From IMG/VR virus record IMGVR_UViG_3300047323_000694, positions 34,045 to 98,044 of that record: a DNA stretch of 64,000 bases, one strand, 5' to 3'. Shown here piece after piece: positions 45,636 to 59,903 of the stretch. The stretch comes from a virus. The stretch's first letter is position 1. Every line of letters starts with the position of its first letter. The position numbers and the translations under genes are program-made. The notes below the pieces were generated by a model. The model was not told the DNA's origin, did not search any database, and saw only the letters and a program-made list of their open reading frames with translations.

Positions 45636-46414
45636 TGCGCAGCCCTCCGCTGATATTCGGCCGCAGCGTCGAGCTGGCGGTTTATGCGTTCGTTCAGATC
45701 CCGGCGAGTGGCGCGAATGCGGTGATCCTTGACCAGTTGGCGCTGGGCGGCCTTGACCTTCAGGTCGCGTTTGATCGCATCCAGCTTTTCCCGGAAGTCA
45801 GCAGATGGCGTGGCGGCCTTGCCGGTGATCAGTCCGGCAATGGCAAGGCCCTCCTGAGTGACCGGCACGACGTTGAGGTCGGCCAGGTACACAGCGCCAC
45901 GCTCCTGAGGGATGCGTTTCATCTGCACAGCGGCCGTGATGGCCTCGACACGGCGATTGGCGTCGAATCCGATGGAGACGTGCCAGTTGACCGGGATCGC
46001 GTCTTCACGGGCCTTGGAGACCAGCCTTTCGTAGGAGCTGATGAAGGCCATGCGAGCGCCGACCTTGTCGCCTACGTTGAGGACTGGCCGGGCAGCGCCG
46101 AGGGCCACTTGGATTTCATCGGTCATCACCACGGTGTCGAATTCATCGTTCGATGCGAGGGCAATGGCCCATGCCTCGTCCTTGCCCGGACGGCCGTCGG
46201 CGGCGTGAATGCGACCCAGCACAGCAGCCAAGGTCAGCTTGCCGGTCAGCTCCTTGCGGCATGACCACAGCGCATTGGCGATCACGTCCATGTCGTAGTC
46301 AGCGAGGTCTTCGGCCATCAGCTTGGCGGCAGGACCGCTCAGGGTCTGGCCCAGGGTTTCAGCAGTGGCGCAGATGGCCATGCTCAGATCAGCGATTTCG
46401 GCGAAGGAAAGCAT
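45632..46414 (-). CDS. replication accessory protein (P position)
   Basis: 260 residues from the ATG at 46414 (GGAGGTGAG upstream). Mostly helical; the N-terminal part (LSFAEIADLSMAICATAETL, YDMDVIANALWSCRKELTGK) resembles phage proteins encoded after O-like initiators and the C-terminus is a basic helix (RATRRDLNERINRQLDAAAE). By analogy with lambda P it may help load a helicase; the fold is not certain. Confidence 0.6.
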   Translation of the reverse strand: MLSFAEIADLSMAICATAETLGQTLSGPAAKLMAEDLADYDMDVIANALWSCRKELTGKLTLAAVLGRIHAADGRPGKDEAWAIALASNDEFDTVVMTDEIQVALGAARPVLNVGDKVGARMAFISSYERLVSKAREDAIPVNWHVSIGFDANRRVEAITAAVQMKRIPQERGAVYLADLNVVPVTQEGLAIAGLITGKAATPSADFREKLDAIKRDLKVKAAQRQLVKDHRIRATRRDLNERINRQLDAAAEYQRRAAQ

Positions 46415-47531
46415 TGCTCTCACCTCCGGCTGTGATCATGGCGTGGGCGTGCTGGGCGGCGTTGATGTTGGCCTGGGTGTTCTCCATCTGGCGGGCAGTG
46501 ACGGCGTTGACCTGTCGGCCGGTGATCCACTGCGTTCGAATCCCTTCCGCCCTGGCGACCAGCAGGCCGAACTCATGCGAGGACCGGATGAAGAACGAGT
46601 CGTTGATGGTCACGTAGAAAGCGGCAACGTTCGGCGCCTCTTCAGCCCCGAGGCGCTGCACAAGCTGGGCCACCTGGCCGTTGACCTTCGCGTTCCGTAC
46701 CGGCTCAACGCTGTAGCGGTCGAAGTAGGCGTTGGCATACGCAGCCCAGGTGTTGCTGTTGGCAATCTGCGATGGTGTCTTTTCCTTCGCCGCCTTGGGC
46801 TTGAGCACCTTCACGTTCGACGCGCCCGGAGCGGAAGCGACTGGCAAGGGCTTTTGATCTTGGATCGGAGAAGCGGGAATCAGAGAATCAGAAGAGAGGG
46901 AATCAAGAGAGAGGGAATCAGTAGGGCAAGGGGTTGCATGGTTGTCGCAACGTTGAGCCATTCTTGAGTCAACGTTGGATCGACGATGATCAGACGTTGA
47001 ATCGCCCTTGATCGAATTACAGGTCGAGCACAGAGTCTGCAGGTTTTCAGACGAATTATCGCCACCCTTAGCGAGCGGGACGATGTGATCAATCGAAAGC
47101 CTTTCGGTATCTCCGCAGCGCAAGCACGTATGGTTGTCGCGGGCGAAAGTTGACTCCCTGAGCGACGGAGACACGTCGTAAGAGTGTCGTGTCATTTGAG
47201 CGCGACCCGGCGGCGCAGGGATTACGCTCGCAACTTCCTTATGGTGAGGCATTTGATGCTTCGTGAAGCTGTCGATTTGCAGATAGCGTTTCCCATCAAT
47301 CTCGTATCGCTGAATGAACCCGAATTCAGCTAAGTCATTGAGCATGCGATCAACATCTACGCTGTCAGCTGGGAACAACGCCATGCGCAAACGCTTCGGA
47401 CGATCTTCAAGGCGTCCCTCCCGGTCTGCCTCGGTCCACATACCAATGAAAAGAAGGCGCGTGGCAAAGTCCAGCTCTGCCAGATGCTCGTTCGAAAAGA
47501 AGCCTGGTTTGATGTTGCGGGAACGTGCCAT
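46389..47531 (-). CDS. replication initiator O-like protein carrying an HNH domain
   Basis: 380 residues. The N-terminal winged-helix domain (SRNIKPGFFSNEHLAELDFA, LLFIGMWTEADREGRLEDRP, YLQIDSFTKHQMPHHKEVAS) is that of phage O-like initiators. Residues about 120-180 form a complete HNH nuclease motif (CLRCGD, LSIDHIVPLAKGGDNSSENL, LCSTCNSIKGD). The remainder is linker and helical C-terminus. Likely the origin-binding initiator with an inserted or co-opted endonuclease. Overlaps the upstream gene by TGATG. Confidence 0.8.
   Translation of the reverse strand: MARSRNIKPGFFSNEHLAELDFATRLLFIGMWTEADREGRLEDRPKRLRMALFPADSVDVDRMLNDLAEFGFIQRYEIDGKRYLQIDSFTKHQMPHHKEVASVIPAPPGRAQMTRHSYDVSPSLRESTFARDNHTCLRCGDTERLSIDHIVPLAKGGDNSSENLQTLCSTCNSIKGDSTSDHRRSNVDSRMAQRCDNHATPCPTDSLSLDSLSSDSLIPASPIQDQKPLPVASAPGASNVKVLKPKAAKEKTPSQIANSNTWAAYANAYFDRYSVEPVRNAKVNGQVAQLVQRLGAEEAPNVAAFYVTINDSFFIRSSHEFGLLVARAEGIRTQWITGRQVNAVTARQMENTQANINAAQHAHAMITAGGESNAFLRRNR
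46875..46920. repeat. iteron-like repeats inside the initiator gene
   Basis: GGGAATCA at 46875-46882, 46898-46905 and 46913-46920, plus GAGAATCA at 46883-46890; the last two GGGAATCA lie in a 13-bp repeat AGAGAGGGAATCA. They encode a Ser/Asp/Leu-rich linker. In lambda the origin iterons lie in the same part of O, so this is a candidate replication origin. Confidence 0.45.
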
Positions 47532-48358
47532 CACGCGACCCCCTTGAGTTCTTTGTCGTGTGTGAAGAGGCCGTCCCACGTTTTCTTCATGGGCAATTCT
47601 TTGTTCAGGTAGAGATCATAGAGACGGATCGCGCCCTTCTTCAGCAGCACCGGCGTGTAGGTGAAGAAGGCGTCTTTACCGTGGGGGGTGACTTCGTGCG
47701 CGTGCTCGGTCATGTACTTGTCGCGGGCATAAGACGCCACACGCCAGCGCACACCAGTCTTGCTCTCGTTGTAGAGCCAGTTGCGACCCTCAAGAGCCCC
47801 TCCGACTTGCATCACGTTCACGCCATTCAGCTTTTTGCAGAACTGCGGCGCGGTCATGCCTTCCTGGAAGAGGTTCTCCATCTGATGGATCTTGGTTGCC
47901 TGAGCCTGATTCTCAGCGCTGAGCAATTGCTGAACTTTTTCAGCAGCCTGCTTTTTCTCGACTTCATCAGCCCAAGCGCGTGCTGCAGCTGCTGGATTAG
48001 AGAAGTCAGGGAGCGTGACGGCTTGGCGTGACTCAAGCTCTTGCCAGCGGTCCACAAGCGCCGCCGTGAACTCGGGAGAGAGTTGCGCAACAACTACAAA
48101 GCTGTCTCGCTTGCAGACCTGGTACTGCTCGACCGCCTGCCCCAAGTGATTCCGGACTTCCCCCAATGGGGGGAGTTCGATAGCTCCGCGCGCTGCGAGA
48201 CGCTCAATTGATTGCTTCACTTTGTCGTGGCGTGACCCGACCAGATCGGCAATTTCCTGAGAGGACATTGAAACGATCCGCGCCACGTTTTCAGAGATAA
48301 CAAAACGTGGCGCGGCGTGAATTGATACGGGATTGACATTGTCTTGTTGAGTGCGCAT
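47531..48358 (-). CDS. Rha/KilAC phage antirepressor
   Basis: 275 residues. The pRha-type domain at about 28-110 (MSSQEIADLVGSRHDKVKQS, FVVVAQLSPEFTAALVDRWQ) is followed by a coiled linker and a KilAC domain at about 165-260 (MTAPQFCKKLNGVNVMQVGG, NWLYNESKTGVRWRVASYAR, YTPVLLKKGAIRLYDLY). Such proteins regulate phage development and act as antirepressors. The inverted repeat copy C lies in its 5' end, encoding RFVISENVAR. Confidence 0.88.
   Translation of the reverse strand: MRTQQDNVNPVSIHAAPRFVISENVARIVSMSSQEIADLVGSRHDKVKQSIERLAARGAIELPPLGEVRNHLGQAVEQYQVCKRDSFVVVAQLSPEFTAALVDRWQELESRQAVTLPDFSNPAAAARAWADEVEKKQAAEKVQQLLSAENQAQATKIHQMENLFQEGMTAPQFCKKLNGVNVMQVGGALEGRNWLYNESKTGVRWRVASYARDKYMTEHAHEVTPHGKDAFFTYTPVLLKKGAIRLYDLYLNKELPMKKTWDGLFTHDKELKGVA
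48279..48314. repeat. 36-bp dispersed inverted repeat, copy C (in rha)
   Basis: CGCGCCACGTTTT and AAAACGTGGCGCG, a perfect 13-bp inverted repeat around a 10-bp centre. The most complete of four copies. Confidence 0.75.
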
Positions 48359-48914: not shown

Positions 48915-49145
48915 TTAAGCAGCTGAAAGCTCGGGCCAGATCTGCTTCCAGTCTTCCGGGCGAAGCTCTCTTCGGGTAACGGCGCCGTAGGTAGCAGATT
49001 CGGTGCGCGCAGCTATTTCAGCTGATGCTGTTTTGTGCCCGTAGGCGATCAGCCGAAGGTAGGCCCGAGTGGTGCCAGTACCTTCAACCTGGGCGTCTGT
49101 TGCTGTTTTCAGCCAGGCAAGCAGGCTTTGGTTCTTGCTCCGCAT
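48915..49145 (-). CDS. cro: Cro-like repressor (YdaS family)
   Basis: 76 residues. Helix-turn-helix at about 20-60 (TTRAYLRLIAYGHKTASAEI) and the family ending RRELRPEDWKQIWPEL. AGGAGG precedes the ATG. It is the first gene under the leftward promoter TTGCTT-N17-TAATAA, which overlaps operator O1, and would shut off repressor synthesis on induction. Confidence 0.85.
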   Translation of the reverse strand: MRSKNQSLLAWLKTATDAQVEGTGTTRAYLRLIAYGHKTASAEIAARTESATYGAVTRRELRPEDWKQIWPELSAA

Positions 49146-49173: not shown

Positions 49174-49229
49174 ATTACCCGCAGGTAATCATCAAAGCAA
49201 TACCCATGGGGAATTTACCTTTCGGTAAC
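49174..49229. promoter_or_regulatory. OR-like operator cluster and leftward early promoter
   Basis: Three 16-bp sites lie between cro and the repressor: ATTACCCGCAGGTAAT (49174-49189), AATACCCATGGGGAAT (49199-49214) and TTTACCTTTCGGTAAC (49214-49229). Core TTACC-N4-GGTAA. The leftward promoter (-35 TTGCTT, -10 TAATAA on the minus strand) overlaps the first and second sites. Confidence 0.8.
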
Positions 49230-49248: not shown

Positions 49249-49731
49249 ATGGATATTTCAGAAATTCGAAGAGCCAACCTTCAGGCGCTGATGAGCGACC
49301 GATTTGGCGGCAAAAAAGCGCATATCGCTGACGCTCTAGGAAAGAGCCCGAGCTATATAGCTAGGTGCCTCTCGCTAACTATCGCGCCAGAAAACAGGAA
49401 GAAAATTGGTGAAGATTTTGCTCGGCACATAGAAGTTGAGCTTGGTCTTGAGCGCTATCAGATGGACAAGCCAATGTCCGGCGCGCACATAGAGGCGTCG
49501 GCTGTAGCGGCTAAGGCTAAGAAACTTGACCTGCTTGCTTCTCCGCGATCGCAGTCAGCTCTTGCCAAAATTGTCGCCGCCGCAGAGTCGGGCCGGCTGA
49601 CCGAAGAGGACATGGTTCTTCTGGAGCTGATCGCAGCGAAGATCGCTGGCGGCGCCCAGGACTCCGGCGCCAACACCAATTCACGACTTAGGGATAGGTT
49701 GAAGATCGATGATTCAGGTACTGAACAGTAG
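49249..49731 (+). CDS. cI: CI-type repressor without peptidase domain
   Basis: 160 residues. The helix-turn-helix is at about 8-50 (RRANLQALMSDRFGGKKAHI, ADALGKSPSYIARCLS) with the usual ENRKKIGEDFARHIEVELGL after it. The rest is an Ala/Lys linker and a short helical domain (LAKIVAAAESGRLTEEDMVL). No S24 peptidase (no Ser/Lys dyad region) is present, so RecA-stimulated self-cleavage is not expected. Divergent from cro; heads an operon with the HipA-like gene. Confidence 0.85.
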   Translation: MDISEIRRANLQALMSDRFGGKKAHIADALGKSPSYIARCLSLTIAPENRKKIGEDFARHIEVELGLERYQMDKPMSGAHIEASAVAAKAKKLDLLASPRSQSALAKIVAAAESGRLTEEDMVLLELIAAKIAGGAQDSGANTNSRLRDRLKIDDSGTEQ

Positions 49732-50584
49732 TTTTTTTGGAGGGCAAATTAGTGCTCCAAAGAATGTCGGCGTGAACCCCCTATTCAGAGCGAAAATATC
49801 CGTCAACGGGGAGTCTGTTAGGTGCTATGTCAAGCCCGCACCTGACAGCTACAAAAACAAGGATGGAACATTTTTCCTGAATCGCGAGATTACCAGCGAG
49901 GCTCTTGGCTACGTATTGGGCAAGGCTTGCGGCATGAGTATGGCGGACAACGCCGGCGTTATAGTTCTTGAGCGGGACATGATCCCTGCCGACATCCTGG
50001 GTAAGCTTGATGAGATTACTCATGGCGACAAGCAAGAGTCCTTCTTGGCATGGTTCAGCCAGGACATGACCTACCCTAATCTCGTCGAAAGGCTTATCGG
50101 CGACCCCAAGAATGACTTCCAAGCAAAGCGCATAAGGCGCGTGGCTGAAACGCTGGCGAAGCATCCTGACTCCCCTGCTCTTGTTTCATTTGATGAGTGG
50201 CTGCTCAATTCGGATCGGCACCTTGGTAACCTTTTGGCTGCCGCGAAGGGGAAAATGATGCTGATCGACCAGGGCCGAATTTTCGTACAGCCTTCATGGC
50301 AACCAGCGACACTTGGCCCGATTGGGGCGCGCTGTAAAAACACATTTGAACTGATGCTGAATACCTACACTCCTAGGTGGAGCGAGCAGTTACCAATAAA
50401 AAGTGCACGATCTCTGGCGTACAATACAATCTCGGTGGCCTTTCGAGGGGATGGCGCTTCCGCCGCTCGCAGCGTGCTCAAGGAGATGATGATGGAGGAG
50501 TCTGACGTGGATACAGTAATCGACTACCTGGCAGGTCGCCTGGACCCCGTTCAGTACAACCAATTTGTCGAGCTATTGGCGTGA
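49709..50584 (+). CDS. HipA-like kinase (HipA_2 type) in the lysogenic operon
   Basis: 291 residues, overlapping the repressor gene by 23 bp. N-terminal lobe GGQISAPKNVGVNPLFRAKI with a candidate ATP Lys in CYVKPAP (42). Catalytic loop LLNSDRHLGNLLAAAK (Asp169, Asn174) and metal-binding MMLIDQGRIF (Asp187), as in HipA-type Ser/Thr kinases. It lacks the long N-subdomain of classic HipA. Expressed with the repressor in lysogens, so a role in exclusion, defence or prophage control is plausible. Substrate unknown. Confidence 0.75.
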   Translation: MIQVLNSSFFGGQISAPKNVGVNPLFRAKISVNGESVRCYVKPAPDSYKNKDGTFFLNREITSEALGYVLGKACGMSMADNAGVIVLERDMIPADILGKLDEITHGDKQESFLAWFSQDMTYPNLVERLIGDPKNDFQAKRIRRVAETLAKHPDSPALVSFDEWLLNSDRHLGNLLAAAKGKMMLIDQGRIFVQPSWQPATLGPIGARCKNTFELMLNTYTPRWSEQLPIKSARSLAYNTISVAFRGDGASAARSVLKEMMMEESDVDTVIDYLAGRLDPVQYNQFVELLA

Positions 50585-51456
50585 CTAACAGCATACTTCG
50601 CAAGCGCCTTTCTCAGGACGCTCCCGCCCGACCAGTCCAGGGTTACTGGCAGCCTATAAGCGTCTGCCTCGACCAGGATGCCGGTGAGTTTCTAAACGTG
50701 GGAGTGGTGTTTTCTAGCGGCACCAAGGTCGATGTGAGGATGCTTGATACGTTCGATCGCATGAAATGCCTGTACGACGGCAGATTCGATCAAAACGATT
50801 TGACGCATTACTTGTTGGATATCGAGGAATACCTTTACAAAACCAAGGGTGACTTCCCTGACGAGATCGACTCTGGGATCAGGCTCGGAACCAAGCTTTA
50901 CGCTGCTGGGGAGTCATCAGAGGCAATTGTTAATGAGTATTTCGAAGATGTGGTAACCCTAGCCAGGCCGAAGGGATCCCCTCGGAATGCTGGATTTCGC
51001 TACACGTCGACTCCGAAGCTTCGGGACAACATCTTTCAGATAATGAAGCAAAAGATGAATATGGAGGCATCAGCGATAATCAAGGACGAACGATTCCGCC
51101 TCAAGATGAAGAATGGCGCATTCATGGATGTTGACACCCCTCTGCTTAGCGCTTCGGCTGCGGGCACCATCGTGTCAGCCTGGTACAAGAGTCCTCTTGT
51201 CGTCTCCAACAACATCCTGCAGGGCTACACCGACCTCGTCGTGGTTTCTAGCAATAGCGACCGGAAGACGGCAATGTCGATTCTTATACCTGACGACAAA
51301 AGCGGTCTGGATGCCGCCGAGTTCCAGAAGCTTAGCGATGCTGTTAGCAAGCAAATCGATAGAATTCGGAACTCTGGTGTTGAGGTTCTGGCTGCCAGCT
51401 CTACCGATATCCTAGCTAACAAGACAATCGAGTGGTGGGCTAACAAGGTGGCATAA
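50581..51456 (+). CDS. DUF3037-like partner of the HipA-like kinase
   Basis: 291 residues. The N-terminal strand region (YWQPISVCLDQDAGEFLNVG then VVFSSGTKVDVRML) follows the DUF3037 pattern ('FVNVGVIL'), and genes of that family are commonly adjacent to HipA_2 genes. The C-terminal half (GYTDLVVVSSNSDRKTAMSI) is specific. It overlaps the kinase stop by 4 bp, indicating coupled synthesis and probably a complex. Function unknown. Confidence 0.65.
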   Translation: MTNSILRKRLSQDAPARPVQGYWQPISVCLDQDAGEFLNVGVVFSSGTKVDVRMLDTFDRMKCLYDGRFDQNDLTHYLLDIEEYLYKTKGDFPDEIDSGIRLGTKLYAAGESSEAIVNEYFEDVVTLARPKGSPRNAGFRYTSTPKLRDNIFQIMKQKMNMEASAIIKDERFRLKMKNGAFMDVDTPLLSASAAGTIVSAWYKSPLVVSNNILQGYTDLVVVSSNSDRKTAMSILIPDDKSGLDAAEFQKLSDAVSKQIDRIRNSGVEVLAASSTDILANKTIEWWANKVA

Positions 51457-51504
51457 CCTATAAGCCCGCTCGACGATCCGAGCAAAACCTCTTTTGAATC
51501 AAGG

Positions 51505-51526
51505 CCCGCCATTGAGCGGGTTTTTT
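51505..51526 (+). terminator. terminator of the lysogenic operon
   Basis: CCCGC-cattga-GCGGG followed by TTTTTT, 48 bp after the DUF3037-like gene. It isolates the repressor-kinase operon from the rightward early promoter. Confidence 0.8.
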
Positions 51527-51538
51527 ATTTGGGAAAAG

Positions 51539-51583
51539 ATTACCTATGGGTATTGACGATGTGAGTTACCTACAGGTAATGTT
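51539..51583 (+). promoter_or_regulatory. OL-like operators and rightward early promoter
   Basis: ATTACCTATGGGTATT (51539-51554) and GTTACCTACAGGTAAT (51565-51580) match the operators before the repressor gene. The promoter TTGACG (51554-51559) with -10 TAATGT 18 bp on overlaps the second site, so repressor binding would block the early operon that runs to int. Confidence 0.78.
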
Positions 51584-58658: not shown

Positions 58659-58766
58659 GAGTTACTCCTTTTGACCCGGCTCCATGCCGGTCACCCGTAA
58701 TACCCCAACACAAAACAAATTGCCACCAGCCAGCATCGGAGGTTGGCGTACGCATTGGAATTCAAT

Positions 58767-59903
58767 ATGAGCGAGCTTCACCAGATATTGGTCGGTGACT
58801 GCATCGAGATGATGCGGACGCTGCCAGGCCAGTCCGTACAGACCTGCGTAACGTCGCCGCCCTACTTCGGCCTCCGCGACTACGGTGTCGAAGGCCAGAT
58901 AGGCCTGGAGCAGACACCGGCCGAGTTCATTGCTCGATTGGTAGATGTTTTCCGGGAGGTTCGCCGAGTACTCCGCGATGACGGAACGATGTGGGTAAAC
59001 ATGGGCGACAGCTATGCAGGCAGTTGGGGCGCCCACGGCCGGGATGATATGGGTGTCGGTGTTTCAACGATCAGCCAGCGGCAGGTTATGGCGAGTCAGC
59101 GAAAAGCCAAGGCCGCCACGCACGCCGAGTACAAGCCGAAGGACTTGATGGGCATGCCTTGGCGTCTTGCGTTCGCACTGCAGGATGATGGCTGGTATCT
59201 GCGGCAGGACATCATCTGGCACAAGCCGAACCCAATGCCAGAGTCGACGCGCGACCGCTGCACCAAGGCTCATGAGTATTTGTTCCTTCTCAGCAAGTCG
59301 CGACGGTACCACTGCGACATGCAGGCTATCCGGGAGCCAGCAGCATATGGACCAACTCCAAGTGGCGTCGGTTTCGGCCACGGTTTTGATGCGGTACCGA
59401 AGCCGCGAGTAACAGTGCCTGCTGGCTGGGATACTACAACCGGTGAAGGCGGTCACGGCGCATTTCATAAGTCAGGATCTGCGCGGACCAATCGCGACAC
59501 TTTCCTGCGCGAAGGGTCTAAGCGCGAACAGCCGATACCTGGACAGGCCAAGGGCACGCACCGGCCAGATCGAGAGCCGAGCAGCTGGGACATATTGACG
59601 CGGAACAAGCGCAGTGTCTGGACTGTGGCAACGCATAGTTTCAAGGGCGCCCACTTCGCGACCTTCCCGCCAGACCTGATTAGGCCATGCATTTTGGCCG
59701 GGGCGCCACGCGGCGGGATCGTGCTCGATCCGTTCGGCGGTGCCGGTACGACTGCACTGGTATCCATGCAGGAGGGTCGCCGATCAATCCTGTGTGAGCT
59801 GAACCCTGAATATGCGCAGTTAGCTAGAGCGAGAATCGACGCGGCATGGCTCGATGGTGCGGCGCAGATGGATGTTTTTCACGACGCGGTACCAGCAGCC
59901 TAA
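58767..59903 (+). CDS. site-specific amino-DNA methyltransferase (beta class)
   Basis: 378 residues from the ATG at 58767. Catalytic motif IV VTSPPYFGLRDYG precedes the S-adenosylmethionine motif I VLDPFGGAGTTALVSMQEGR, the beta-class order of N6-adenine or N4-cytosine enzymes. The central target region includes WHKPNPMPESTRDRCTKAHE and VWTVATHSFKGAHFATFPPD. No cognate endonuclease nearby, so probably antirestriction or regulatory. Confidence 0.92.
   Translation: MSELHQILVGDCIEMMRTLPGQSVQTCVTSPPYFGLRDYGVEGQIGLEQTPAEFIARLVDVFREVRRVLRDDGTMWVNMGDSYAGSWGAHGRDDMGVGVSTISQRQVMASQRKAKAATHAEYKPKDLMGMPWRLAFALQDDGWYLRQDIIWHKPNPMPESTRDRCTKAHEYLFLLSKSRRYHCDMQAIREPAAYGPTPSGVGFGHGFDAVPKPRVTVPAGWDTTTGEGGHGAFHKSGSARTNRDTFLREGSKREQPIPGQAKGTHRPDREPSSWDILTRNKRSVWTVATHSFKGAHFATFPPDLIRPCILAGAPRGGIVLDPFGGAGTTALVSMQEGRRSILCELNPEYAQLARARIDAAWLDGAAQMDVFHDAVPAA

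Follow-up and report, generated by a model that had tools for sequence, protein, structure and literature searches.

Pairs of a kinase and a DUF3037 protein, known as DS-6 or HipAD, constitute a phage-defence system that requires a predicted catalytic residue (PMC13092281); according to a passage of the same paper, HipAD was first described in prophages. In Retron-Sda1 of Sphingobacterium, deletion of the HipA gene ends defence and deletion of the DUF3037 gene is toxic (PMC12548924). The original prediction for the locus described here took HipA_2/DUF3037 pairs to be without an assigned role, a view that these two publications supersede. In the annotation of Escherichia phage PhiR5_1 the genes follow the order cI-HipA-HipD, with the pair in the position of lambda rexAB.

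The locus lies in a window of 64,000 nucleotides (the whole stretch of DNA analysed here) taken from a virus record of 98,044 bases. This record encodes an integrase, a terminase, a portal protein and replication genes, which places the operon in the immunity region of a temperate phage. Three overlapping genes, for a repressor, a HipA-like kinase and a DUF3037-like partner, follow one another on the same strand (Table 1). They had been proposed to form one operon with its own terminator; the coordinates proved exact and the hairpin is present at the operon end. Comparison of the window with locus L088 gave dN ∼0.1 for the kinase and the partner with saturated synonymous sites, as well as dN/dS of 0.06 for the repressor; the low dN despite this saturation is the mark of purifying selection and indicates that the genes are real.

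Table 1. Features of the operon and its flanks (window coordinates)
Feature	Position	Strand	Basis
Cro/YdaS-like regulator, divergent, beyond the right operators	48915..49145	-	ORF, family profiles
Predicted operator TTACCCGCAGGTAA, right side	49175..49188	+	palindrome scan
Predicted operator TTACCTTTCGGTAA, right side	49215..49228	+	palindrome scan
CI-like repressor without S24 peptidase, 160 aa	49249..49731	+	ORF, PHROG matches
Repressor C-terminal tail, aa 90-160	49516..49728	+	alignment, Mantel tests, tail-led searches
Repressor/kinase gene overlap, 23 bases	49709..49731	+	window sequence; 8-23 bases in tail-type close relatives
HipA-like kinase, 291 aa	49709..50584	+	catalytic residues K42, E64, D169, N174, D187 intact
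Kinase/partner gene overlap, 4 bases	50581..50584	+	window sequence; identical in all close relatives
DUF3037-like (HipD-like) partner, 291 aa, GTG start	50581..51456	+	family profiles
Terminator-like hairpin at operon end	51501..51524	+	sequence
Predicted operator TTACCTATGGGTAT, left side, one mismatch	51540..51553	+	palindrome scan
Predicted operator TTACCTACAGGTAA, left side	51566..51579	+	palindrome scan

Several other genes of the window drew our attention. A gene on the minus strand (46389-47579) encodes a replication-initiation protein whose N-terminal (17-133) and C-terminal (270-391) matches are separated by an HNH-endonuclease-like segment, as if a nuclease domain had been inserted. 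A Rha-like phage regulatory protein (Pfam Phage_pRha) is encoded near the immunity region (47531-48358, minus strand), and a gene for an N6/N4 DNA methyltransferase (58743-59903, plus strand) is located in the phage early region.

The kinase contains the motifs N167-S-D169-R-H-L-G-N174 and I-D187-Q-G. Residues K42, E64, D162, D169, R170, N174, D187 and R190 are invariant among 21 relatives; D169, N174 and D187 are also kept in the HipA protein of Escherichia phage PhiR5_1. Taken on its own, the window kinase scored under the cut-off with Pfam HipA_2 (E 0.042), had no PADLOC match and, as a single query in a search of bacterial genomes, retrieved nothing. At the family level, HipA_2 was matched by 15 of the 21 members and PDC-M66A (PADLOC) by 11 of them; profile-profile comparison with canonical stand-alone HipA_2-DUF3037 pairs gave E 4e-10, and the family HMM retrieved HipA of PhiR5_1 (E 1.6e-4). 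Sequence profiles searched against solved structures found PI3-kinase fragments and chance matches only. The structure model (pLDDT 85, pTM 0.86) had solved neighbours in Foldseek that include Fam20, CtkA, PI4K and HipA. Intact motifs, family-level profile matches and a HipA-like fold model bear out the initial description of the protein as a HipA_2-type kinase.

For the partner, PDC-M66B matched the window protein itself (E 4e-4) and 15 of the 21 family members. The DUF3037 profile was matched by seven of the 21, the window protein alone falling under the Pfam cut-off (E 0.053). Comparison with profiles of canonical DUF3037 proteins yielded E 4e-5 over ∼100 residues, and the match is confined to the N-terminal part of DUF3037/PDC-M66B. 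A fold search with the partner model retrieved nothing from the PDB at E ≤ 0.001; its weak matches were nuclease-like folds (Can2 and XPF/Mus81). Of the two folds expected at the outset, that of the kinase was recovered by modelling, while that of DUF3037 was not, though profiles do give DUF3037; this identity, purely profile-based, is sound across the family. The C-terminal DUF1829 domain reported for DS-6B was not found in the window partner. HipD of PhiR5_1 had no match to it either, thus DUF1829 is not a strict criterion for HipAD. Judged by its sequence, the pair belongs to HipAD/PDC-M66/DS-6 as a divergent branch.

In IMG/VR, a search that started from the kinase identified 27 close loci (40-64% identity), and a genome scan led by the partner identified four loci. 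The partner follows the kinase with a 4-base overlap in each of the 26 close viral loci whose length covers both genes (L028, which ends at a contig edge, is outside this count). Every close relative whose upstream region was read has a repressor gene there. This repressor bears the C-terminal tail in 19 of the 26 loci; among the other seven, all six that were tested have an S24 repressor with no tail (the seventh, L020, which was not among these six, shares its kinase with L019). The order repressor, kinase, partner is kept in distant sets too (Moraxella phages, L033, L038, L064, L090, L100, L101 and L137), and chromosomal stand-alone pairs without a repressor also exist. A second operon type is seen at L100 and L101, where the repressor tail, of ∼106 residues, is conserved and the partner has an unrelated-looking sequence. 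Alteromonas phage P24 (L128, 38-2239) carries a kinase-partner pair annotated as hypothetical, preceded by a gene for an HTH protein whose end resembles the tail. In Acinetobacter phage vB_AbaS_qsb1 (L129, 3648-5570) another pair annotated as hypothetical is located among phage tail genes, after an Arc-like gene.

The motif TTACCN4GGTAA, with at most one mismatch, occurs at four sites in the 64 kb, against an expectation of 0.47; all 100 shuffles had fewer than four. Two of these predicted operators are situated between the Cro-like gene and the repressor, and two directly past the terminator. The same two-plus-two layout is found at L088 and L090, whose repressors have the DNA-binding domain common to the window. 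A shared-operator scan detected flanking palindromes in the window, L003, L030, L089, L090, L100, L101 and L127 (weak, A+T-rich ones in L003 and L127), and did not find them in the remaining loci of the scan. In lambda, cI-rexA-rexB lies between the right and left operators; the operator pairs on both sides of the window operon place it in a like arrangement. RexAB of Pseudomonas putida prophage P1 is also encoded downstream of a CI-type repressor, in parallel to lambda (PMC12894663).

We conclude, with a probability of about 0.72, that this operon is the transcript for lysogeny maintenance in a lambda-like prophage and that the repressor is accompanied in it by a divergent HipAD-type toxin-antitoxin defence pair at the place of rexAB. 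In the lysogen, the transcript of the repressor would also supply the kinase, as the toxin, and the DUF3037-like partner that would restrain it. Infection by another phage would lift the restraint; the released kinase would phosphorylate its target, and growth or phage production would stop, with the lysogen population and the prophage surviving as the outcome. We infer the HipAD-like action of the window pair, including its trigger and target, by analogy. The defence role itself appears well supported by homology to the tested HipAD/DS-6 systems and by the location after a phage repressor, as in PhiR5_1. To that extent the lysogenic defence system of the original prediction stands, on evidence that comes from relatives.

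The toxin-antitoxin logic of HipAD would also suit an addiction module that stabilizes the prophage, with defence being a side effect or absent. An integrated prophage, however, would presumably gain little from such a module, and the position is that of exclusion systems such as RexAB; we consider this explanation unlikely.

The repressor is built of two parts. PHROG transcriptional repressor families match only residues 1-90, and the DNA-binding part (∼aa 1-89) has a ParB/KorB-like helix-turn-helix. A family-profile search found no S24 peptidase match in the window repressor, in agreement with its earlier characterization as peptidase-less; an S24 domain was found in ten relatives without the tail. 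In alignments, the DNA-binding half of the window repressor belongs to a family very unlike those of most relatives, yet the last ∼70 residues align. For 20 sets, Mantel r was 0.92 between tail and kinase and 0.89 between tail and partner versus 0.06 between DNA-binding domain and kinase; within the main type the corresponding values were 0.83, 0.68 and 0.36 (permutation P-values serve as a guide only, since pairwise values are not independent). The window and L090 have the DNA-binding domain and operators in common, but the L090 tail is clearly different and its kinase and partner are unrelated-looking. Likewise, L089 and L100 agree in DNA-binding domain and operator (TTAGCN4GCTAA), but in nothing after the domain. 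What is new here is a modular repressor tail co-inherited with the kinase while the DNA-binding half is exchanged.

This co-inheritance fits a contact between repressor and kinase. The repressor could then be a working third component, whose tail would bind the kinase or the kinase-partner complex and so hold or sense the toxin; loss or capture of the repressor, e.g. by operators of an infecting phage or by an antirepressor, would free the kinase. Both the Mantel correlations and the two natural exchanges speak for such a role, but the tail adjoins the kinase gene, and linkage alone could keep the two together.

Searches led by the tail end at kinases, a further point in favour of a third component. 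In 299 Pseudomonas genomes, the three with strong tail matches are the same three that have strong kinase matches, and in a fourth genome a distant kinase is immediately preceded by a weaker tail. Nine more weak matches were short and had no kinase downstream where the context was read (that of L098 was unread); scoring covered only about a quarter of the first-look candidates in each genome, so this count may miss weak tails. In genomes outside the Pseudomonas sample the single strong match leads to a kinase; both matches in viral contigs lead to kinases, as does the only convincing match among 50,697 phages. A scan with the window tail alone as query found nothing, and tail alignments were too variable for pattern-based scans of the collections.

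The tail is under constraint, with dN/dS of ∼0.06 to 0.3 where computable, its synonymous sites being near saturation. Its end is conserved at the protein level, which again favours a working tail: the first Arg/Lys is encoded by seven codons and the first Leu by four. We considered whether the conserved end is merely the ribosome-binding site of the kinase gene and rejected this, as synonymous codons are used for the neighbouring Arg and Leu; a single Arg, almost always AGG, may reflect that site.

An obligatory pairing of tail and kinase is ruled out by the loci with S24 repressors. The other tested relatives, six of them close, have self-cleaving S24 repressors and no tail, hence contact between tail and kinase cannot be essential for all. 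A tree built from kinase plus partner cannot be reconciled with fewer than three switches between tail and S24 repressors, so these were exchanged more than once. Some related repressors (L091-L097, L099 and L138) have a short tail and are not followed by a kinase gene; possibly, they are ancestors or losers of the module. These short tails, along with canonical HipAD pairs seen here without such a repressor partner, count against a third component as well. We therefore hold that role only tentatively, at well below even odds; that the prophage repressor is a defence subunit, with a portable tail that would couple the immunity state to the kinase so that interference arms the toxin, seems doubtful.

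The tail may be a dimerization element or a tether. If it serves repressor oligomerization only, it would be linked to the kinase passively and the pair would be plain cargo, an explanation that competes with the third component and is compatible with the defence operon we prefer. Tail and S24 domain are mutually exclusive in the loci examined, stand-alone repressors have a short version of the tail, and the sequence pattern makes a helical hairpin likely. On the other hand, the far tail end, SHxRLRxKLxxND, was seen in kinase-linked repressors only, and breakpoints between DNA-binding domain and tail recur in several unrelated repressor families. We give this explanation an even chance.

The tail bears as well on the proposal that the kinase is a lysogeny-control enzyme, which would phosphorylate the repressor (or Cro) and shift the choice between lysogeny and lysis. 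Such a function would agree with the overlap of the kinase and repressor genes and with the [ST]PR[ST] motif conserved in the tail; a helix cap, though, would also yield an [ST]P pattern, the same kinases are kept beside S24 repressors without the tail, and the known relatives act in defence, which leaves it little probability.

The defence operon we prefer would extend HipAD-type defence beyond its described members to phages of Pseudomonas, Azotobacter and Moraxella, which carry a divergent branch overlooked by current annotation; this branch occupies the place next to the repressor that is classic for exclusion systems. A functional tail would connect lysogenic immunity directly, at the molecular level, with an abortive-infection toxin, and natural tail swaps are at hand (window versus L090 and L089 versus L100).

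With respect to known systems, the window pair resembles HipAD in having a HipA-like kinase gene followed, with a 4-base overlap, by a gene for a DUF3037 protein, and in keeping the catalytic residues; in contrast to the HipAD partner, the C-terminal half of the window partner is not recognizable. PhiR5_1 has the kinase-partner pair directly after the repressor gene, as in the window, but its HipA is only ∼19% identical to the window kinase, and its cI is larger and ∼120 bases away, whereas the window repressor overlaps the kinase gene and has the kinase-linked tail. HipBA and HipBST share with the window the kinase fold and an HTH protein encoded before the kinase; in the window, however, the HTH protein is a phage repressor, the DNA-binding domains of relatives are unrelated and the partner is DUF3037-like rather than a HipB (Xre) or HipS antitoxin. 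RexAB of lambda and of P. putida prophage P1 is likewise a two-gene exclusion system downstream of a CI-type repressor (PMC12894663); there, RexB is a membrane protein, RexA binds DNA and no kinase is present. No Rex family model was among the family matches of the window kinase and partner, the first of which has a kinase fold. In Moraxella phages Mcat22 and Mcat18 and Pseudomonas phage vB_PaeS-D14P, where kinase and partner are annotated as hypothetical and the DNA-binding domains differ from that of the window, the three genes overlap in the same order as in the window.
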